Below, piece after piece: positions 14,860 to 43,751 of a DNA stretch of 45,086 nt. The stretch covers positions 1 to 45,086 of IMG/VR virus record IMGVR_UViG_3300044511_000220; one strand, given 5' to 3'. This DNA comes from a virus. The notes under the pieces were generated by a model. The model was not told the origin of the DNA and made no database searches. It saw nothing but the letters and a program-made list of their open reading frames with translations. Within the stretch, counting starts at the first letter, position 1, and each line of letters opens with the position of its first letter. The position numbers and the translations under genes are program-made.

Positions 14860-16275
14860 TTAAAATAATGGGATATAATTCTTCACAATTGGAAAACCAT
14901 CCTCATTAAGCAGGTAAGTTCCATCCTCGTTTAAAAGAAAATCCTCAATCTTATCCACGGGAATGACGCCGCTGATAAACCAGCCTTTGGAAACATCATA
15001 TGGGTCTATTTCAGTGGAATAAGCCAAGGAGACAACCTTATGATTACCGACGCTCATATTGGACGACCGGCTTTGAAACTTGCTTTTAAGAAAATCATAT
15101 TGTGCCGCGACATCCTGTAATTTATTCAGAATACCAGCATTATAGAACCCCGTTGGCCCGACGCCTGCGCCAAACCTGTCGGGATGCTTTAACTTAAGCG
15201 TGATGTTATATTCCAAATCCTTGCGGGTTAACTCATTTAACACGCCTGTTTGATGCTCGCCCACAATGATTTCAAAGTTCAAGTCCGCAAAAATGGGGGG
15301 CGTTATTTTTCTGTCTATGGGTAATTTATGTCCCAGCCCGGCCAAAACCTGACGATTAAAATTGACGTTGAAGTTGTAAGATGTGATGCTAAGGCCCGTG
15401 AAATTGACTTCCGAATCGGGTATAGTGGCTTGACCCGTGGATGAAATATCCACCATGATGTTACCCGGCAATAAAGCACCAACGCCCCCCTCATCTAACA
15501 ACGGCGGAACATAAAATAGCTTGCTTCCACTTTCGGGTGTGTTGGTTCTATAATCCACCGCCGGGCCTAACGTAGCATTTCCACTACTATCAAACTTGAC
15601 ATTTTCACATGTGAAGGCAACGCTCGCGCGGGGCAAATTACCAACGGAAGCCGAATTGTTATATGAGTCCAGATAACAATTACCAAAGCTCATCACTTGA
15701 TAATTGACGTTCCCACTGTTAAACGCGCGCGTTACATCTGGATTATTGAAATCCTCTCGCCGTGTTAACTTCACGTCATTATAACCCGTCTCTAATACAA
15801 CGAATAAATTGCGCTTGTCCCGGTAGCTTGGGGGCCAAGGTAAATCCCCGGTGGGAAATTCCAACGTGGAAGCAACAAAACCCGAAATAGGACAGACTCG
15901 ATTGCTATAAAATGGAGCGCCGCTAAAGGGATGTTGAACGCGCGGATAATTAACATAGAGCCCCAAGCGGGCTTCGTTCTTAACTCCGTTTACATAATAG
16001 TCTAATACAACATTAGCCGTAACAGGCTTGATGATGGCCCGATTTACCAAGGAATATGTGCCAAGCTGGGCAACATTATCTCTGGGAATTTCCAGATTAT
16101 ATTCGAGGCGCGTTACCCGGTCAAGTTGTTTGAGAAGGTTATGGTTTTTGAGAAGGCCCGAATGAGATAAATCGTTATTTAACGTGCCCGCATAGTCAAT
16201 AAAGAAGAACCCGCTTGCCGGGGCTGGCCCCACGAAAACGGCTTCTGTATTAAAAATAACATAGGAGCGCGCCAT
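14860..16275 (-). CDS. Tail tube-like paralog (copy 2) with repeated C-terminus
   Basis: 471 residues. It shares with the 381-residue protein at 4376 the blocks FVGP, LDRVTRLEYNLEIPRDNVAQ followed by LGTYSLVNRA, SASVGNLPRASV and a late EYNITLKLK strand, so the two arose by duplication. It is longer by inserted loops and a C-terminal tandem repeat (FLLNEDGTYLLNEDGFPIV). Its ATG overlaps the stop of the DUF1501 gene by one base (TAATG), so translation is coupled. A baseplate tube or tail-end tube subunit is a reasonable guess. Exact role unknown. Confidence 0.65.
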   Translation of the reverse strand: MARSYVIFNTEAVFVGPAPASGFFFIDYAGTLNNDLSHSGLLKNHNLLKQLDRVTRLEYNLEIPRDNVAQLGTYSLVNRAIIKPVTANVVLDYYVNGVKNEARLGLYVNYPRVQHPFSGAPFYSNRVCPISGFVASTLEFPTGDLPWPPSYRDKRNLFVVLETGYNDVKLTRREDFNNPDVTRAFNSGNVNYQVMSFGNCYLDSYNNSASVGNLPRASVAFTCENVKFDSSGNATLGPAVDYRTNTPESGSKLFYVPPLLDEGGVGALLPGNIMVDISSTGQATIPDSEVNFTGLSITSYNFNVNFNRQVLAGLGHKLPIDRKITPPIFADLNFEIIVGEHQTGVLNELTRKDLEYNITLKLKHPDRFGAGVGPTGFYNAGILNKLQDVAAQYDFLKSKFQSRSSNMSVGNHKVVSLAYSTEIDPYDVSKGWFISGVIPVDKIEDFLLNEDGTYLLNEDGFPIVKNYIPLF

Positions 16276-17567
16276 TAAGCTAAGATTCCTTTAATCGGAG
16301 TGCCGTGGTAAACAATCTTAATTGGGCGTCCGCCCGAAGCAAGCAAATCCTTATCATGGTCAATACCCAGCAAATGATATACGGTGGCGGCATAATCTTC
16401 CAAATGCACGGGATTTTCACCCACGCCGTTTGAATTCGCATCCGACGCCCCATATACCATACCGTTTTGCAATCCTGCGCCCGCCATGACGATACTAAAA
16501 ACGCCGGGCCAATGGTCACGTCCAGCCGTCGCGTTGATTTTTGGGGTGCGTCCAAATTCCGTCGTCACCAAAACTAATGTTTCATCCAGCAGCCCCTTGG
16601 CGTCCAAATCGGTAATTAATGCTGCAAAAGCCTTATCAAAATTAGGCAATTGCCGATTCATATTATCTCGAATTTGGTCATGATGGTCCCAGCCACCATA
16701 GGTCAATGTAACAAATCTGACCCCACCCTCAATAAGCCGTCGGGCAAGCAACATACGCATACCCGCCGTATTACGCCCATACATATCCTTGATTGTGTCG
16801 GATTCCGCCTTAACATCAAAGGCGGCTCTGGCGCGTTCTGAGCTAATCAAGGAATATGCCTGACTGTAAAATTCATCCATACCTTGCAGTTTATCATTTT
16901 GCTCCAATTGGGAAAAATGTTCATCCACCAATTCCCGTAATTTTTTACGATTGGCCGCACGTTCGGGCGTAACACTATCGGGCACCGTTAAATCCCTGAC
17001 GGCAAAGTTTGGGCTCGCGGGGTCGCTTCCAATACTAAAAGGCCCAAAGGCCGAACTTAAAAAGCCCGCGCCAGCAAATTCATTGGGAAAATTAGGAATA
17101 GTAACATACGCGGGTAGATTTTTTTGCCCACCTAACTGATGGCTTACAACACTTCCCATACTTGGATATTGCAGGGATGGGGATGGTTTGTAGCCAGTGA
17201 ACAGGTTGTGTGTGCCTCGCTCGTGTGCTGCCTCGCCATGCGTGAAGGAACGAATAACAACGATTTTATCCGCGATTTTTGCCGTGTGTGCCAAATTCTC
17301 AGAAAAGGCTACGCCGGGCAACACCGTCTTAATATGGCTCAAAGGCCCACGATATTCAATCGGGGCGTCCACCTTCGGGTCAAAGGATTCTTGTGATGCC
17401 ATACCACCGGGTAAAAAGATATGAATAACGGATTTGGCACGCGCCGAACGCTTTTCAAGAGCAAGCGCCTTGGGTAAGGTTAAACCAAAAGCGCCCAATG
17501 CCCCGACAAAGAGAAAGTCGCGACGATTAGAACCCCAAGGATGTTTTCCACAATCGGAGTAGTGCAT
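16275..17567 (-). CDS. DUF1501 Tat-exported protein inside virion operon
   Basis: 430 residues of full family length. The N-terminus has a twin-arginine signal (SNRRDFLFVGALGAFGLTLP, Arg15-Arg16). The body contains the DUF1501 hallmarks LPGGMASQESFDPK, TLTYGGWDHHDQ, TTEFGRTPKI, GRDHWPG and HLEDYAATVYHLLGI. DUF1501 proteins are alkaline-phosphatase-superfamily proteins of unknown substrate, abundant in Planctomycetota and Verrucomicrobiota. Here the gene lies 6 nt after the portal stop and overlaps the next gene by one base, so it is co-translated with virion genes. The family is certain; export and host origin are inferred. Confidence 0.9.
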   Translation of the reverse strand: MHYSDCGKHPWGSNRRDFLFVGALGAFGLTLPKALALEKRSARAKSVIHIFLPGGMASQESFDPKVDAPIEYRGPLSHIKTVLPGVAFSENLAHTAKIADKIVVIRSFTHGEAAHERGTHNLFTGYKPSPSLQYPSMGSVVSHQLGGQKNLPAYVTIPNFPNEFAGAGFLSSAFGPFSIGSDPASPNFAVRDLTVPDSVTPERAANRKKLRELVDEHFSQLEQNDKLQGMDEFYSQAYSLISSERARAAFDVKAESDTIKDMYGRNTAGMRMLLARRLIEGGVRFVTLTYGGWDHHDQIRDNMNRQLPNFDKAFAALITDLDAKGLLDETLVLVTTEFGRTPKINATAGRDHWPGVFSIVMAGAGLQNGMVYGASDANSNGVGENPVHLEDYAATVYHLLGIDHDKDLLASGGRPIKIVYHGTPIKGILA

Positions 17568-23470: not shown

Positions 23471-24145
23471 TTAAATATCCACCTCTCCCTGTGCGATAAG
23501 TTTTTTTGCCTTGGTTATGATGGCTTTTCGAACGTTCGCGATGTTCTTATACCCCGCAGCGCGACCCTTTTCGGATGTTCGATAATTCATGATTTTAGCT
23601 ACCTCTTCCTCGGTTTTGTTCTGAATATAGAGCAAATCATATAATCGCGCCTCAATGGGCTTTAATGATTTCAGCATCTTCTCATGCAGTTGTGACGCGG
23701 CGCGTGTAATATCCACATTATCATCCGTCATATCGAAAACCTCTTGTGAGTGATTTTCGAGCGAAACGGGCAGCTTGCAATTATGGGCGCGCTTTTTGGT
23801 CTTTTCCCAAGTAGCATATAACGGACAATCGGCACACTGTTTGGCATAAATACGACAACCACTTTCACCCTCGGCGGCAGCACATCTCAAACATGGGCGC
23901 GAAAAATTAGAATAAACGTTACGTATTAGGTTCTTAATTTGGCGGGATATGACCCGGTTTACCCACGGCCCCAAGGGTTGTGTTTGGTCATATAATGCCC
24001 ACTTCTTATGAATATGAATACGTAAAATTTGGGCGACATCATCATAATCCATCCAAGCGATGGCGGTAAGGTTCCATTTGTGCCGCCGTTTGGTGATTTC
24101 GCAATTAATAGCGTCGAGACATTCCTCGAAGGTTTTAGATTTCAT
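23471..24145 (-). CDS. RNA polymerase sigma-70-like factor
   Basis: 224 residues. A region-2-like block (DYDDVAQILRIHIHKKWALY, then PLGPWVNRVISRQIKNLIRN) is followed by a Cys-rich insert (PCLRCAAAEGESGC, then CADCPLY) and a C-terminal region-4-like helix-turn-helix (LKPIEARLYDLLYIQNKTEE, then VAKIMNYR). It would direct RNA polymerase to phage promoters, most simply the late genes around it, and the GTGTAA motif is a candidate target. The cysteine insert between the two sigma regions is unusual and may bind zinc. Confidence 0.8.
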   Translation of the reverse strand: MKSKTFEECLDAINCEITKRRHKWNLTAIAWMDYDDVAQILRIHIHKKWALYDQTQPLGPWVNRVISRQIKNLIRNVYSNFSRPCLRCAAAEGESGCRIYAKQCADCPLYATWEKTKKRAHNCKLPVSLENHSQEVFDMTDDNVDITRAASQLHEKMLKSLKPIEARLYDLLYIQNKTEEEVAKIMNYRTSEKGRAAGYKNIANVRKAIITKAKKLIAQGEVDI

Positions 24146-34481: not shown

Positions 34482-34538
34482 CGGGTTACTGTTCGCGCCC
34501 GTCGCTTTCGTCGCGGGCTTGTTTATGCGAACGCGGAC

Positions 34539-34566
34539 ACTTTAGCAGGTTCGGCGCGTGAGTCAA
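34539..34566 (-). promoter_or_regulatory. Promoter with structured leader
   Basis: -35 TTGACT, 16-nt spacer, -10 TAAAGT, 57 nt before the ATG. A-tracts lie just upstream of the -35 box. Confidence 0.6.
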
Positions 34567-34608
34567 TAGGGGCGATGCACTTTTTTTAACTTTTTTTTAT
34601 GCCCCGTG
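34562..34608 (-). repeat. 47-nt direct repeat, copy 1 (A-tract element)
   Basis: Matches 35050-35096 with few differences. On the minus strand it reads ATAAAAAAAAGTTAAAAAAA then GTGCATCG up to the -35 box, so it resembles an UP element. Confidence 0.7.
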
Positions 34609-35388: not shown

Positions 35389-36267
35389 CTATTCGCTTTC
35401 GTCCGCGTCTGCTTCCGGGTCCGCCGGGGCCGGGGCGTCGTTAAGTATCCACTTCGCCGCCTTGCTCGCCGCGCCCGCCGCCACTACAACGGCGCGATTG
35501 TCCTCGCGCAAGGTTTTAATCCAACCGGCGAGATAAGCGGCGGAATTTTCAAAGGTGCTTTCAAGGCCGATGGAATTTCCGACGAAAGCGGCGGACATTT
35601 CCGCAATCAATTCCTCGCGCCCGTAACTGTCAGAGCCGAACATTTCCAACTTGGAAATGCCTTCCCGATTCAGGCGGGAAACGTGCCCGGTAGAGTGCGC
35701 CAATTCGTGAAACAGCGTCGAGTAGTAGGCTTCTGGCGCGCTGAATGACTCGCGGGAAGGCATACCAACGAAGTCCTCGGAGGGACGATAAAACGCCCGC
35801 CCTTGCCCGTGTCGAATCTCAGGCTTTTGCGGCATCCCCGCAACGATAGCTTCCGCCGCTTCAATGGGATTGAAAGCAACGCCAGCGGCGCGGGCGGGAA
35901 TGGCAATGCCCTCCGTTTGCGCCAAGTTGAATACGGTATAATACCGGAGCAATGGGATACGCTTCGGATTGCCCTTTGCGTCCAACTCTTTGCCGTCCAG
36001 AAATTTCCAGAAAACCACGGGAAAACCCTTCTCGCCGCGCTTCACGTTGCCGCCAAGCCCCGCCGCTTGGCGATAGGTCAGCCAATAGTTTGACTCAAAG
36101 CCCGCCACGGCGAGGATAAAAGCATTGATGCCCCGATAGGGCTTGCGGGAAATGAAATTGGCGGGCGCATCGGCATCGCCTTTCCAAGTCTTTTTCCACG
36201 GGACGGTTCCCGCTTCAAGAGCCGCAAGGATTCTATCCGTGACAATTTGAAAAACAGTGTCGCGCAT
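35389..36267 (-). CDS. ardC: ArdC-like antirestriction protein
   Basis: 292 residues. The N-terminal domain (VTDRILAALEAGTVPWKKTW, NFISRKPYRGINAFIL, YWLTYRQAAGLGG, KRGEKGFPVVFWKF) is the ssDNA-binding ArdC domain. The C-terminal domain has zincin motif HELAH at 187-191 with a downstream YGREELIAEMSAAF supplying the third ligand. ArdC proteins shield incoming DNA from restriction. The leaderless sigma-70 promoter fits expression early after entry. The last 15 residues are acidic and probably disordered. Confidence 0.9.
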   Translation of the reverse strand: MRDTVFQIVTDRILAALEAGTVPWKKTWKGDADAPANFISRKPYRGINAFILAVAGFESNYWLTYRQAAGLGGNVKRGEKGFPVVFWKFLDGKELDAKGNPKRIPLLRYYTVFNLAQTEGIAIPARAAGVAFNPIEAAEAIVAGMPQKPEIRHGQGRAFYRPSEDFVGMPSRESFSAPEAYYSTLFHELAHSTGHVSRLNREGISKLEMFGSDSYGREELIAEMSAAFVGNSIGLESTFENSAAYLAGWIKTLREDNRAVVVAAGAASKAAKWILNDAPAPADPEADADESE

Positions 36268-36304: not shown

Positions 36305-36481
36305 TTAATACGGGCAATTATCACCCGTGCAGCAAGGGCAAAGTGTAGCCGTGCAATGCGGACAAACCGGAACAACGGCATTTTCGCGTTCGCTTTCCTC
36401 GTCGCAATGCGCGCAAGTAAAAACCGCGCGCCGCTCAATTTCGCCCGTGAACTCGTTCAAGTCTGTTAAGATAATTCGCAT
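36305..36481 (-). CDS. 58-residue Cys-rich zinc-finger-like protein
   Basis: 58 residues, found by following the promoter. It reads MRIILTDLNEFTGEIERRAV at the start and contains CAHC, CPHC and CPCC, with a final Cys near the C-terminus, so a rubredoxin-like or double zinc-ribbon fold is likely. No paralog in the window. The promoter places the start exactly. Confidence 0.75.
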   Translation of the reverse strand: MRIILTDLNEFTGEIERRAVFTCAHCDEESERENAVVPVCPHCTATLCPCCTGDNCPY

Positions 36482-36487
36482 AAGTGC

Positions 36488-36515
36488 AATTTAAGACTTT
36501 TTTAGGCTTTGTCAA
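36488..36515 (-). promoter_or_regulatory. Leaderless promoter
   Basis: -35 TTGACA, 16-nt spacer, -10 TAAATT, 6 nt to the ATG at 36481. Confidence 0.75.
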
Positions 36516-36637
36516 ATACTTTTTTAGCCTTTATCCTTTACCGTTAAAGGTATCCGTGCATCCTTCGGTCCCCTACCCTTCGCGTGTTACCGCTAGTCAG
36601 GCTGTAAGTGTCGCCGCCACTTGTGTTCGGAAATTGT
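36516..36637 (-). ncRNA. Putative non-coding RNA D
   Basis: A cassette-type promoter directs transcription to begin near A36637, but no start codon follows and no frame of useful length is open. The roughly 120-nt product would end before the next promoter and carries the hairpin CCTTTA-ACGG-TAAAGG near its 3' end (36535-36550). The overlapping 70-codon minus frame (36544-36756) has a different start and is judged a shadow. No known RNA family recognised. Confidence 0.5.
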
Positions 36638-36643
36638 AGGTTT

Positions 36644-36671
36644 AGTCTAAGGCTTTTTGCGCCCTTGTCAA
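36644..36671 (-). promoter_or_regulatory. Promoter of putative RNA D
   Basis: -35 TTGACA, 16-nt spacer, -10 TAGACT; predicted start 36637. Confidence 0.65.
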
Positions 36672-36688
36672 GAGTTAATGCGGGCGGA

Positions 36689-36889
36689 TTATTCGCCAGA
36701 GCCATCGCGCCTTGCAAGGGCAACCCGCCCGCGAAGAAACTCGATTGCCGTTTCAAGCGACACGTTCAGACGGGCGAAATGGACAAGGTTTTCCGCGCAA
36801 GCCGCCGTATCGGACGTGCAAAACAGGGTGAAGTTGTCGTGCGCCAACGGTGCGCCGCACAAGGGGCAATCGGAATTGAGCGTTTGCAT
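36689..36889 (-). CDS. 66-residue zinc-binding-like protein
   Basis: 66 residues beginning MQTLNSDCPLCGAPLAHDNF. The CPLC pair followed by FCTSDTAAC gives four possible ligands, like a small zinc finger. The C-terminus is Arg-rich and ends acidic. Start fixed by its leaderless promoter. Function unknown. Confidence 0.7.
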   Translation of the reverse strand: MQTLNSDCPLCGAPLAHDNFTLFCTSDTAACAENLVHFARLNVSLETAIEFLRGRVALARRDGSGE

Positions 36890-36895
36890 AGATTC

Positions 36896-36923
36896 AATGT
36901 AAGGGTTTTTCGCGCCTTGTCAA
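36896..36923 (-). promoter_or_regulatory. Leaderless promoter
   Basis: -35 TTGACA, 16-nt spacer, -10 TACATT, 6 nt to the ATG at 36889. Confidence 0.75.
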
Positions 36924-36932
36924 GCGCGCCCC

Positions 36933-37124
36933 CTATCGGGGGAAATCATCTTCAGGATGCGGCACGGGCGGGCCGGAATAAGACGGGTTAGGTTCCCACG
37001 TATCAAAATCCGTCAAAATCCATGCCCTTTCCGGGCGCGTTGCGCCGTAGTTACGGGCGTATTCCCGGCACGCTTCGGAAACGGTTGCGGGGCGGTCCTC
37101 GTCGAATTCAACAGGATTGAACAT
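36933..37124 (-). CDS. 63-residue orphan protein
   Basis: 63 residues, acidic and Pro-rich at the C-terminus (WEPNPSYSGPPVPHPEDDFP). No family recognised. The start agrees with the promoter geometry. Confidence 0.6.
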   Translation of the reverse strand: MFNPVEFDEDRPATVSEACREYARNYGATRPERAWILTDFDTWEPNPSYSGPPVPHPEDDFPR

Positions 37125-37130
37125 GGGATG

Positions 37131-37159
37131 ATTAAAAGGGAATTTTGCCCCCTTGTCAA
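37131..37159 (-). promoter_or_regulatory. Leaderless promoter
   Basis: -35 TTGACA, 17-nt spacer, -10 TTTAAT, 6 nt to the ATG. The -35 box contains the TGA stop of the gene before it. Confidence 0.65.
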
Positions 37160-37434
37160 GCGTTCGCCGGAAGGCGGCGCGCGTCCAACTGCCAGCCCCT
37201 ACGGGGCGGGCGGGCGTTCACCGTCCACGTCGGCACTCCCCAGCCGTTCGGGTTATGACTGGCGACAAAAACCGTCCAATCGGCGGGGATGACGGCGCGC
37301 ACGTCCGCAACGTGCGCGTCAGTGGGTTGCACCGTGTCAGTGTAAAGGTCGGCCCTATCCCCGTTCACGTCCCGGTAAAAGTTCACAGTGCGCCCACCGG
37401 GGGTTTGACGCGAGAAGCGAAAGAATGAGTCCAT
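37156..37434 (-). CDS. Small protein, paralog of 42821 gene
   Basis: 92 residues. Middle segment (HVADVRAVIPADWTVFVASH, then NGWGVPTWTVNARP) matches the 78-residue protein at 42821 (DVADFASILPADWRVSVASD, then YGWGVPTWVLYARP). The pair is a duplicated family with no known function. The stop codon lies within the -35 box of the next promoter. Confidence 0.7.
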   Translation of the reverse strand: MDSFFRFSRQTPGGRTVNFYRDVNGDRADLYTDTVQPTDAHVADVRAVIPADWTVFVASHNPNGWGVPTWTVNARPPRRGWQLDARRLPANA

Positions 37435-37440
37435 GCGTTG

Positions 37441-37468
37441 AATATAAGGGTTTTTTAACGTCTGTCAA
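37441..37468 (-). promoter_or_regulatory. Leaderless promoter
   Basis: -35 TTGACA, 16-nt spacer, -10 TATATT, 6 nt to the ATG at 37434. The -35 box abuts the 3' end of RNA A. Confidence 0.75.
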
Positions 37469-37586
37469 GTCGGAGCGTGGCGGCTAACTTAAAGGGGCAT
37501 TTCTCACATCCGTTCAGCCGGGGCTTGCCCGACATTCCGTTAGTAACCCCTCCCGATACTGGGAGTCTCCCCGCCACGCACCCGAC
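37469..37586 (-). ncRNA. Structured non-coding RNA A (118 nt)
   Basis: A cassette promoter sets the start at G37586. The RNA begins GTCGGGTGCGTGGCGG and ends CCGCCACGCTCCGAC, so its two ends pair over about 14 bp with one bulge. Inside are CTCCC/GGGAG (37550-37565, 6-nt loop), GGGC/GCCC (37521-37530) and CTAAC/GTTAG closing the core next to the end stem. No open frame. The next promoter starts at the very next base. It shares AATGTCGGGC and GAGAAATGCC with RNA B. No known family recognised. Confidence 0.75.
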
Positions 37587-37592
37587 AAAAGG

Positions 37593-37620
37593 ATATTAAG
37601 GGTTTTTAACGCCCCGTCAA
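37593..37620 (-). promoter_or_regulatory. Promoter of RNA A
   Basis: -35 TTGACG, 16-nt spacer, -10 TAATAT; predicted start G37586. The -35 box lies in the last codons of the 75-residue gene. Confidence 0.75.
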
Positions 37621-37833
37621 GCCGGGAATCTTGCCCGCGAGCACGGCGTCACGAAAGGCAAGCCGCCCGCGAACCGCGCTCCGCACGTCAAAGCGCGCCG
37701 CGTGAGCGTGCCCGCTGGTCCGCCCGTGCACGCGCACCGCGTCACGCAAGGCATCCTTCGTCACGCGGAGCAAAAGGAATGACGCATAGTGCGCCGCGTC
37801 AAAGGCGGTGTCGGTAGCAAAATTCAGTTGCAT
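37606..37833 (-). CDS. 75-residue basic orphan protein
   Basis: 75 residues, Arg/His/Ala-rich (RDAVRVHGRTSGHAHAARFD). No family recognised. Basic charge would suit nucleic-acid binding, but there is no motif. Start set by its promoter; the gene end holds the -35 box of RNA A. Confidence 0.65.
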   Translation of the reverse strand: MQLNFATDTAFDAAHYASFLLLRVTKDALRDAVRVHGRTSGHAHAARFDVRSAVRGRLAFRDAVLAGKIPGLTGR

Positions 37834-37839
37834 AGGTGC

Positions 37840-37868
37840 AATTTAGGCGTTTTTACCTCCGCCGTCAA
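37840..37868 (-). promoter_or_regulatory. Leaderless promoter
   Basis: -35 TTGACG, 17-nt spacer, -10 TAAATT, 6 nt to the ATG at 37833. Confidence 0.75.
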
Positions 37869-37876
37869 GCCCCCGC

Positions 37877-38074
37877 CTATGCGGGACGAATCTTCACTCC
37901 CTCAACACGGGTGACTTCGCCCCGGCCAATCTTTTTTGCCAGCAACGCCAACTCGATTTCATTCCGCCCGCCGTTGCGGATGGTGGCGCGATACGTTACG
38001 CCCCCGCGCGCGTAAAAGACGGACAAATGCGAAAAGGTTGCGGTGGGGAGGGAGGGAATGAGGATTTTGAACAT
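37877..38074 (-). CDS. 65-residue protein, possible paralog of 38811 gene
   Basis: 65 residues. It has a central GVTYRATIRNGG strand and a KKIGRGEVTRVEG end; the 67-residue protein at 38811 has RTYHATFAANIP and EKRRGEVLLLSVADG in the same places, so both may share one small beta fold. Weak but consistent similarity. Function unknown. Confidence 0.65.
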   Translation of the reverse strand: MFKILIPSLPTATFSHLSVFYARGGVTYRATIRNGGRNEIELALLAKKIGRGEVTRVEGVKIRPA

Positions 38075-38080
38075 GGAGGC

Positions 38081-38109
38081 AAATTATGGGATTTGCGCTG
38101 TATTGTCAA
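38081..38109 (-). promoter_or_regulatory. Leaderless promoter
   Basis: -35 TTGACA, 17-nt spacer, -10 TAATTT, 6 nt to the ATG at 38074. The -35 box contains the stop of the 20-residue ORF. Confidence 0.75.
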
Positions 38110-38168
38110 GAGTTTTCGCCAACCCCGAAATAGGCAATCGAGCAAGCAAACAGGGCAAGTAGCATCAT
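38106..38168 (-). CDS. 20-residue hydrophobic peptide
   Basis: Reads MMLLALFACSIAYFGVGENS: one hydrophobic span with a Cys in a lipobox-like setting. A promoter-like TTGATT-N17-TACCAT ends 6 nt before the first ATG, and the TGA stop lies in the next -35 box, both as in the larger genes here. Membrane peptide likely if it is expressed. Very short, so moderate confidence. Confidence 0.5.
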   Translation of the reverse strand: MMLLALFACSIAYFGVGENS

Positions 38169-38174
38169 GGGATG

Positions 38175-38203
38175 ATGGTAACGAATTATTAGGGAATAAT
38201 CAA
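38175..38203 (-). promoter_or_regulatory. Leaderless promoter (weak -35)
   Basis: -35 TTGATT, 17-nt spacer, -10 TACCAT, 6 nt to the ATG at 38168. Confidence 0.5.
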
Positions 38204-38391
38204 TTCCCGCCCCAAAGTTGGCCGATGTCCTGATACGTTGCGCCGATGATAATTGCCTTGTAACAGGCATCATCAACGCGGAGCATTACATTGACATAAT
38301 CGGGCCGCACAATCCAGATTTCAGGAAAGGCGACAGGATGAAAAGGCGCGGGTTGCGCCGTGTCATTAGCAAAGGGTTTGTCAACTCTCAT
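38200..38391 (-). CDS. 63-residue orphan protein
   Basis: 63 residues from the ATG at 38389-38391, which lies inside the end of the 49-residue gene (ATGAGAGTTGA), so translation is probably coupled. A longer frame reaching 38460 lacks a promoter. The sequence (PEIWIVRPDYVNVMLRVDDA) predicts a small alpha/beta protein. No family recognised. Confidence 0.55.
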   Translation of the reverse strand: MRVDKPFANDTAQPAPFHPVAFPEIWIVRPDYVNVMLRVDDACYKAIIIGATYQDIGQLWGGN

Positions 38392-38530
38392 TTGAACCAC
38401 CGAATTTGGACTTCCGACGATAAGCCCCCGGCCCCTTGCGTGGCCGATGGATACGGCCAACGGTGGAATACGAAGGAATCATTTTGCGCGCCTTCACGTT
38501 GCGCGGCGCGGGGATGGAAAAGGATTTCAT
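38381..38530 (-). CDS. 49-residue very basic protein
   Basis: Reads MKSFSIPAPRNVKARKMIPS at the start and has a run of Lys and Arg (RPRKGPGAYRRKSKFGG). A leaderless promoter places the ATG at 38528-38530. A nucleic-acid or ribosome binding role is plausible because of charge only. It forms a two-gene operon with the 63-residue gene that overlaps its end. Confidence 0.6.
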   Translation of the reverse strand: MKSFSIPAPRNVKARKMIPSYSTVGRIHRPRKGPGAYRRKSKFGGSNES

Positions 38531-38536
38531 CCGGGC

Positions 38537-38565
38537 AATTTAAGCCCTTTTGTCCGCTATGTCAA
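38537..38565 (-). promoter_or_regulatory. Leaderless promoter
   Basis: -35 TTGACA, 17-nt spacer, -10 TAAATT, 6 nt to the ATG at 38530. Confidence 0.75.
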
Positions 38566-38597
38566 GCGTTAAGAGAGCGGGAGCATCAAATCAAAAT

Positions 38598-38780
38598 CTA
38601 CACCCCGCAAGCCCGCAGGAAGCGCGCCCGGTCAAATTGCGGATTGAAACCCGCAAACACCGTTGCCAACCCTTCAATGGCGCGAAGGGTGGCGTTTTCC
38701 GCCGCCTTACCCTCGGCGCGGCTGATTTCCAACGCGGCGTTGAGTTCGGCGGCGATTTCAATGAAATGCTTTTTGCTCAT
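38598..38780 (-). CDS. 60-residue helical orphan protein
   Basis: 60 residues, Ala/Glu-rich helices (FIEIAAELNAALEISRAEGK). No family recognised. Start fixed by its promoter. Confidence 0.65.
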   Translation of the reverse strand: MSKKHFIEIAAELNAALEISRAEGKAAENATLRAIEGLATVFAGFNPQFDRARFLRACGV

Positions 38781-38786
38781 GGGTGT

Positions 38787-38814
38787 ATTTTAAGATATTT
38801 TACTTCCCTGTCAA
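38787..38814 (-). promoter_or_regulatory. Leaderless promoter
   Basis: -35 TTGACA, 16-nt spacer, -10 TAAAAT, 6 nt to the ATG at 38780. The -35 box holds the stop codon of the gene before it. Confidence 0.8.
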
Positions 38815-39014
38815 GCCACCATTTCGATTTCCCCATCCGCCACGGAAAGCAATAGAACTTCACCCCTACGCTTTTCGACGAAATACAAACCACGCGCTTT
38901 GGCGTTTGGGATATTCGCCGCAAAGGTGGCGTGATAGGTCCGCCCCTTGTGAAAGGTCCACGAAGCCGGAAGGTGTGCCATTGAGCGGGTTTGAAGCATT
39001 TTGACTTTGTGCAT
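38811..39014 (-). CDS. 67-residue protein, possible paralog of 37877 gene
   Basis: 67 residues, small beta-rich protein (FHKGRTYHATFAANIPNAKA) with a C-terminal GEVLLLSVADGEIEMVA. Its TGA stop is part of the next -35 box. Function unknown; see the 37877 gene for the weak similarity. Confidence 0.65.
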   Translation of the reverse strand: MHKVKMLQTRSMAHLPASWTFHKGRTYHATFAANIPNAKARGLYFVEKRRGEVLLLSVADGEIEMVA

Positions 39015-39020
39015 GGATGT

Positions 39021-39048
39021 ATTTTAGGGGATTTTGCGCCCTTGTCAA
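39021..39048 (-). promoter_or_regulatory. Leaderless promoter
   Basis: -35 TTGACA, 16-nt spacer, -10 TAAAAT, 6 nt to the ATG at 39014. Confidence 0.8.
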
Positions 39049-39061
39049 GCTACCCCACAAA

Positions 39062-39177
39062 AAACTTGCTCGGCTTATTGATTCTCACTTTAGGAGTCCT
39101 GCCCGCGAGCCGGGGGCTTTCCCTAGATACGCTCTTTGTCCTTGCGGACCGGTGGCAATCTGCACCGTCGAAAAAAG
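39062..39177 (-). ncRNA. 3' part of the RNA B transcript (RNA F)
   Basis: About 115 nt after the T-run that follows RNA B. It contains GTCC-GCAA-GGAC, CCCG/CGGG and GGCT/AGCC stems and then TTTTTT, so it looks like a second structured segment closed by a terminator. No frame and no own promoter seen. Could be read-through from RNA B or a separately processed RNA. Confidence 0.4.
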
Positions 39178-39397
39178 GTCGGATATGGCGGGATTTGAAC
39201 CCGCGACATTGCAAATTTGCCCAGCTACATTTCGGACAGTGTGACGTGTTTGCGTTCCCCCTTGCGCACCCGACATCTAAAGGTCGTCAAGGGGGTTCGG
39301 GCCACAAGTGAGAGTTACGCCTGAATTGACCGAGAGTTTTTGGCATTTCTCCCATGTTAAACCCATCACTTTACTTGTGAACCCTTACCCGCCCGAC
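39178..39397 (-). ncRNA. Structured non-coding RNA B with tRNA-like 3' part
   Basis: Promoter sets the start at G39397. The RNA begins GTCGGGCGGG and ends ATATCCGAC, followed by a T-run, so GTCGG/CCGAC can close it at about 220 nt. GGGTTC and ACAAGT in the 5' part pair with GAACCC and ACTTGT near position 100. The last 97 nt (39178-39274) begin GTCGGGTGCG and carry a consensus T-arm (GCGGGTTCAAATCCCGC), but the acceptor and anticodon arms do not fold in the standard way. I therefore call a tRNA-like RNA, not a tRNA. A tmRNA-like RNA was considered and is unsupported. Confidence 0.6.
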
Positions 39398-39403
39398 ATT
39401 GAA

Positions 39404-39432
39404 AGCATAAGGCTTTTTTTTCTTCCCGTCAA
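39404..39432 (-). promoter_or_regulatory. Promoter of RNA B
   Basis: -35 TTGACG, 17-nt spacer, -10 TATGCT; predicted start G39397. Confidence 0.7.
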
Positions 39433-39434
39433 GT

Positions 39435-39628
39435 CCCGCCTTTGAAATTGTTTGGGCGCGTATCGCTCTCCCCCTCGCGGCCTTCCTTATATTGTTTGCG
39501 CGGTGGAATCGGCTCACCCGCGTTTGTTCATTTTTTCCGTTCTGGGTTTCGGCTACTCAATACGGGGTCAACTTTCGTTGGTGGTGCCGCACTTTGGCTT
39601 ATTCCCGCACACGGTTCAAACGAACGCT
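39435..39628 (-). ncRNA. Putative non-coding RNA G
   Basis: A cassette promoter places the start at A39628; about 190 nt follow without an open frame until the promoter of RNA B. A GTTC-GTTT-GAAC hairpin is near the 5' end, and CGCG/CGCG and GCGCC/GGCG pairs occur toward the 3' end. The only ATG gives five codons. Structure is less clear than in RNAs A-C. Confidence 0.5.
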
Positions 39629-39634
39629 AAAACA

Positions 39635-39662
39635 AAGATAATGTTTTTTTTGTCCCTGTCAA
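39635..39662 (-). promoter_or_regulatory. Promoter of putative RNA G
   Basis: -35 TTGACA, 16-nt spacer, -10 TATCTT; predicted start A39628. Confidence 0.65.
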
Positions 39663-39671
39663 TACCGCACT

Positions 39672-39935
39672 TCAAACATCCGTTGCCCGTCGCGCGCCAA
39701 CCTTCGCCGTCGCCGCGCTCGCGCCCAACGGGGCGGAAAACCAACAGACATTCCTATCGGAATCCCACGCTTGCCAAGTGAAGCGTCGCCCCTCAAAAGT
39801 CAGCACCTTGCGTGTCAGCTTCTTAACATCATCCCACCCGTTAGGGCAATTTACCGTAAGATATTCAAGCCCAACGTCGGGACGCACGGAATGAATGACG
39901 GGGATTTCATCGGGGATGATGGAAGCGGTGGGCAT
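39672..39935 (-). CDS. 87-residue orphan protein
   Basis: 87 residues from MPTASIIPDEIPVIHSVRPD; the frame is open further upstream, but the promoter points to this ATG. Middle part VNCPNGWDDVKKLTRKVLTF predicts a small alpha/beta fold. No family recognised. Confidence 0.65.
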   Translation of the reverse strand: MPTASIIPDEIPVIHSVRPDVGLEYLTVNCPNGWDDVKKLTRKVLTFEGRRFTWQAWDSDRNVCWFSAPLGASAATAKVGARRATDV

Positions 39936-39941
39936 GGATGT

Positions 39942-39970
39942 ATTTTGGGGCTTTTTAAGCCGCCCGTCAA
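39942..39970 (-). promoter_or_regulatory. Leaderless promoter
   Basis: -35 TTGACG, 17-nt spacer, -10 CAAAAT, 6 nt to the ATG at 39935. Confidence 0.65.
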
Positions 39971-40031
39971 GAGCCTTATTCGTTCCATTGCAACTCAACC
40001 CCCAACACCAAGCCTAAAAGAAGCAAAGTCA

Positions 40032-43722: not shown

Positions 43723-43751
43723 AAATTAAATCTTTTTTGGGGCGGCGTCAA
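43723..43751 (-). promoter_or_regulatory. Promoter of RNA C
   Basis: -35 TTGACG, 17-nt spacer, -10 TAATTT; predicted start G43716. The whole promoter overlaps the end of the 62-residue gene, whose TAA stop is in the -10 box. Confidence 0.7.

Follow-up and report, generated by a model that had tools for sequence, protein, structure and literature searches.

Does a 118-nucleotide interval lying between two small phage genes, and lacking a start codon where its neighbours carry one, specify a dedicated RNA? The DNA analysed here (hereafter the window) is a 45,086-nucleotide linear virus record from IMG/VR (IMGVR_UViG_3300044511_000220), in which the minus strand carries most of the genes that can be recognised. 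Small genes form an array from approximately 34 to 45 kb, and in front of each stand TTGAC, a spacer that is usually A-rich, and a -10 element resembling TATATT. The ATG codons of these genes are found about 34-35 nt after the start of the -35 element, and thus their transcripts are expected to begin at the start codon, without a leader. A consensus scan of positions 36400-40000 recovered 17 promoter-like sites, compared with 2.1 in shuffled sequence. The small genes of this phage serve as an internal standard for transcript starts, against which a promoter that is not followed by a gene can be judged.

One such promoter precedes the interval of interest, which we call RNA A. Its cassette is located between genes 37833-37606 and 37434-37156 and lacks an ATG where a leaderless gene would start. 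A reading of the sequence made earlier, without database searches, had placed the element correctly at 37469-37586; the strand, which it did not give, is minus, such that the RNA would run from 37586 to 37469. The promoter (37593-37620, minus strand) consists of TTGACG at 37620-37615, a 16-nt spacer and TAATAT at 37598-37593, as identified by consensus scan, and both its spacing and its A-rich spacer match those of about 25 cassette promoters. The stop codon of the upstream gene, which codes for 75 amino acids (37606-37833, minus strand), falls within it. When this promoter is aligned with those of the roughly 25 leaderless genes of the same array, the predicted first base of RNA A is G37586, precisely where the other cassettes carry the A of ATG. 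This start scores 7.8 against the array's own pre-ATG profile, on which true cassettes mostly score 3 to 14. RNA A thus has its own promoter, whose predicted start agrees with the 5′ end proposed from the letters alone. The proposed 3′ boundary is equally exact, since the base after C37469 (37468) opens TTGACA, the -35 element of the downstream cassette promoter (TTGACA-16-TATATT, 37441-37468, minus strand) that drives the leaderless gene 37434-37156.

The absence of an open reading frame had also been claimed, and strictly speaking this does not hold. Frame 0, which contains a GTG at 37577, runs without a stop for 43 codons from G37586 before it reaches a TAA at 37457-37455 within the next promoter. 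One could accordingly propose that the locus specifies a small protein of some 26-43 residues (GTG 37577 to 37455, containing CEKCPF) and that any RNA structure is incidental to a GC-rich coding sequence. We regard this as highly improbable given that open runs of 43 codons are not rare in GC-rich DNA, that no ATG occupies the leaderless position, and that codon use in this frame is unlike that of the neighbouring genes. The frame scores -0.43 bits per codon, outside the range of -0.07 to +0.45 spanned by all 24 of those genes, although evidence from so short a sequence is of moderate strength. RNA A is likely a noncoding gene.

If the product is RNA, then its predicted structure becomes informative. 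The minimum free energy (MFE) structure joins the two ends of RNA A over 15 bp, arranged as 6 and 9 pairs around a single bulged U (U37580), and the same end stem appears in the centroid structure. Its 5′ strand is GUCGGGUGCGUGGCGG (37571-37586, minus strand) and its 3′ strand is CCGCCACGCUCCGAC (37469-37483, minus strand). A 14-bp stem had been described previously; the stem itself is confirmed and its length is corrected. Terminal pairing of this extent (15 pairs) arose in only 3 of 5000 shuffles of RNA A. The interior includes a central hairpin, GUCGGG-CAAGC-CCCGGC (37517-37533, minus strand), a second hairpin, CCC-AGUAUC-GGG (37552-37563, minus strand), and further helices formed by GACU/AGUU and AGGGGU/GCCCCU. 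The internal stems named in the sequence-only reading fared less well. When CTCCC/GGGAG and CTAAC/GTTAG are imposed together with the end stem and the central hairpin, the structure reaches -46.6 kcal/mol, compared with -55.2 kcal/mol for the MFE structure, and it is best considered an alternative fold in which the second hairpin has the five pairs of CUCCC/GGGAG rather than three.

A comparison with shuffled sequences, as the sequence-only reading had suggested, favours a structured RNA. None of 200 dinucleotide shuffles was as stable as RNA A at -55.2 kcal/mol (z -3.66), and in a larger sample 2 of 2000 were (z -3.57). RNA A is also more stable than the neighbouring transcripts. When 25 coding cassettes were folded from their own starts, RNA A had the lowest score (z -3.46, compared with a coding mean of -0.13 and a minimum of -3.0), and the paired fraction of its first 15 nt was 0.92, whereas the coding cassettes averaged 0.35 and reached at most 0.70. 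However, a regional scan found several other minus-strand windows of 118 nt in this GC-rich region with z-scores of -3 to -5, and for this reason the stability of RNA A is unconvincing if taken alone.

These regional values bear on the idea that the structure is an inverted repeat that arose by chance in intergenic DNA rich in GC, or perhaps a DNA element involved in replication or packaging, with no functional RNA produced. The complementary (plus) strand of RNA A likewise beats its shuffles, at z -2.82, as is expected for an inverted repeat. However, the minus strand is the more stable of the two (-55.2 versus -47.3 kcal/mol), and the first base of the stem is the very base at which transcription is predicted to begin, while its end adjoins the next -35 element. 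The coincidence of the stem with both boundaries is a stronger argument for RNA A than its stability, and we consider a repeat without an RNA product to be improbable.

No terminator was detected at the 3′ end of RNA A or before the next gene, and this raises the main rival to a dedicated RNA. Transcription that begins at the RNA A promoter might continue through the next promoter into gene 37434-37156, which lies on the same strand only 34 nt downstream, and the stem would then be a structured 5′ leader that protects or regulates the mRNA. There is a possible precedent in the same array, where the 5′ end defined by the promoter at 34566 also begins a stem and the ATG follows about 75 nt later. 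That predicted transcript (34532-34457, minus strand) opens with the GC-rich stem GTTCGC...GCGAAC, and windows of 118 nt starting at 34530-34590 reach z-scores of -5.3. Set against a leader function, gene 37434-37156 starts without a leader and is served by a better promoter of its own, so that a second leader of 150 nt is unneeded, and the end stem of RNA A closes ahead of that promoter without masking the start codon. On balance we judge the leader explanation unlikely, but it deserves the most serious consideration among the alternatives.

Searches for known families and for relatives of RNA A gave consistently negative results. No model in Rfam 15 (4227 models) matched RNA A at the gathering threshold, and none matched the interval 37400-37640 at E<=5 with permissive filters. 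A covariance model of RNA A recovers its own locus at 148.6 bits and drew no match from 50 complete records of related phages. The end-stem pattern had three matches in IMG/VR, two of which are nearly identical to each other, and these share only the pattern with RNA A; an 18-mer from the core had no match in the same collection. Among 84,980 species genomes, a pattern for the 5′ end had eight matches, none fitting the RNA A model beyond E 2.1, and blastn searches of phages and plasmids yielded nothing credible. A 19-nt match in two relatives (L182 and L183) was attributed to chance because no corresponding end stem surrounds it. By these searches, which used short exact patterns or a single-sequence model and could miss a diverged homolog, RNA A is an orphan across IMG/VR and the collections of phages, plasmids and species genomes.

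Attempts to reach homologs through nearby proteins ended similarly. No near relative was found for the proteins encoded on either side (37156-37434 and 37606-37833), the upstream protein having no relatives in our searches. The terminase identified one partial contig with 100% identity, which does not include the array region. The ArdC gene (35389-36267) was set aside as a route to homologs, as its three relatives lack the array.

RNA A is not the only cassette in the array with a promoter and no open reading frame, as the promoters at 43751, 39662, 39432 and 36671 share this characteristic. The cassette downstream of 43751 (43717-43420, minus strand) is about 300 nt long, starts with GTCGCGAG, ends near a T run and has no Rfam match. 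Two others extend over 39628-39440 and 36637-36516 on the minus strand, following the promoters at 39662 and 36671. The cassette served by the promoter at 39432 (39398-39170, minus strand) starts with GTCGGG and has a 5′ part of 112 nt with a closed end stem, followed by a 3′ part in which a tmRNA-type T-arm precedes CCGAC and a T run. This T-arm, at 39188-39205, is the sole tmRNA-like element found in the window. We considered whether the RNA from this cassette and RNA A are paralogs, given that they have a 13/14-nt motif in common (ATGNGAGAAATGCC), but make no such claim because shuffled versions of RNA A equal this match in 103 of 4000 trials.

The T-arm is relevant to another explanation, in which RNA A is a decayed or diverged tRNA- or tmRNA-like gene, a remnant of the tRNA/tmRNA region of related phages that is still transcribed but has lost its function. 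Relatives do carry tRNAs and full tmRNAs, and the 39432 cassette not only keeps the T-arm but also contains a 10-mer identical to the one with which RNA A opens. However, ARAGORN predicted no tRNA or tmRNA gene in the window, and RNA A itself has no T-arm and no Rfam match at E<=5, including to the tRNA and tmRNA models (RF00005 and RF00023). Moreover, an intact 15-bp end stem that matches the start site would be unexpected in a decaying gene. A degenerate tRNA or tmRNA therefore seems an improbable source of RNA A.

Related phages offer a broader view of what this genomic region can encode. A sigma-like protein encoded at 23471-24145 (minus strand), with a weak match to Sigma70_r2, marks a large uncultured phage lineage, and at least 555 IMG/VR stretches encode a relative of the protein. 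The best 80 of hundreds of contigs are about 58-66% identical in this protein. A search for cellular hosts found no relatives of this protein in GTDB genomes. Searching with the promoter pattern led to a further record (L065), which has six diverged proteins in common with the window.

One relative, L156 (contig IMGVR_UViG_3300031800_000001), has an ORF-less cassette at 2665-2734, upstream of a tRNA-Thr gene. Its promoter, of the leaderless type and at 2630, is not followed by an ATG where one would be expected, and the predicted RNA starts at position 36 from TTGAC, which is the ATG position of a coding cassette in the same phage. This RNA has an end stem of 15 bp and is more stable than all 200 of its shuffles (z -5.0). 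It thus resembles RNA A in its promoter, its start site, its lack of an open reading frame and its terminal pairing. However, it is only about 70 nt long, has a different interior and no detectable sequence similarity, and the RNA A model misses the locus. By analogy, L156 gives some support to the suggestion that cassettes of the RNA A type exist elsewhere in the lineage.

Other structured RNAs are present in these relatives. A tmRNA scored above the cut-off in 8 of 35 records, with complete examples of 137-148 bits in L156 (6908-7335), L110 (1301-1725), L113 (4143-4555) and L154 (8724-9146). Directly 3′ of the tmRNA, three of these phages carry a small RNA (L110 1729-1809, L113 4560-4639, L156 7339-7428) that has a T-rich tail and an end stem in which four pairs are changed on both sides. 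It has no Rfam match at gathering, and a model built from the three examples (R2) found no match better than E 1.2 in the window and none at RNA A. Together with the L156 cassette, the tmRNAs and this adjacent RNA support the view, again by analogy, that structured RNAs may be a regular part of the small-gene region in this lineage. Several additional observations were made in the same records. The tmRNAs appear to have in common a long tag-like frame, which when read by eye from the DNA includes DIDMEMALSVDEADEILAKFGYVEEEALLLAV in L156 and is similar in L154. A GGTGC...GCACC hairpin element is conserved at 85-92% identity between phages (L110 1026-1075, L156 6642-6689, L185 4197-4242), and in both L110 and L156 it precedes the tmRNA gene. 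Finally, L182 carries a manA RNA motif (Rfam RF01745, 62.5 bits) at 16251-16435 on the minus strand.

Given the promoter, the coincidence of start and stem, the excess stability, the codon statistics and the lack of any Rfam match, the best reading of RNA A is a dedicated phage RNA outside the known families, as had been proposed, even though the internal stems named in that proposal belong to an alternative fold. We estimate a probability of roughly 50% for the full version of this reading, in which RNA A is a noncoding RNA gene whose early-transcribed, 3′-processed and stably structured product acts on a protein. From the computed promoter, position, fold excess and noncoding statistics, we infer the following course of transcription, early timing, 3′ processing and protein binding. 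The RNA polymerase of the host, carrying the housekeeping sigma factor, would initiate at G37586, and the 118-nt RNA would fold at once into a domain closed by the 15-bp GC-rich stem formed from its own ends. Because no terminator is visible, the 3′ end would probably be generated by cleavage or by trimming back to the end stem. This stem would also shield both ends from nucleases and keep ribosomes off. The RNA could then serve as a stable ligand that binds, scaffolds or titrates a host or phage protein, a role that is more likely than that of a base-pairing antisense RNA because most of its bases are predicted to reside in helices.

A more general arrangement can be imagined, in which small genes with their own promoters and leaderless starts make up a cassette grammar of this large uncultured phage lineage, and in some cassettes the base that would otherwise open the start codon is instead the first base of an end-stem RNA. 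The set would comprise RNA A, up to four others in the window and one in L156, and might permit early delivery of RNAs that bind and disable host RNA-binding or translation proteins. We offer this as a speculative and rather unlikely extension of the reading for RNA A.

If RNA A is transcribed as predicted, it is a candidate for a new RNA family whose promoter, start and 3′ boundary were all derived from sequence alone. It would also join the few phage RNAs of no known function to which a separate gene is devoted, and its lineage additionally has tmRNAs and a covarying small RNA adjacent to them. Among comparable RNAs are RNAs C and D of phage T4, which are small stable RNAs of unknown function that reside in a cluster of tRNAs and mature from the precursor of that cluster. 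They resemble the putative RNA A in being small, stable and noncoding and in being encoded among small genes; RNA A differs in having a separate promoter and no tRNA beside it. The pRNAs of phi29-type phages are also phage-encoded, and these RNAs of about 120 nt end in a terminal helix and have a multi-helical interior. RNA A is similar in size, in its paired ends and in its multiple internal helices. However, membership in this group is not supported, given that RNA A has no Rfam match and that the large terminase and the portal of this phage are of another type, the terminase matching phrog_2 and other large terminases.

Small RNAs of phages and prophages such as IsrK, AgvB and c4 have regulatory roles, with AgvB and c4 working through base pairing or the mimicry of targets, and IsrK serving also as an mRNA (PMC12197685). 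RNA A would likewise be a small RNA encoded by a phage, but it is predicted to be mostly helical and has no known target. The solitary-repeat RNA anti-CRISPRs (Racr) are small phage noncoding RNAs that bind host proteins by mimicking single CRISPR repeats (PMC10651486). As a small phage RNA that would act on a protein, RNA A is akin to these, and it is set apart by its predicted fold as a 118-nt domain of multiple helices.
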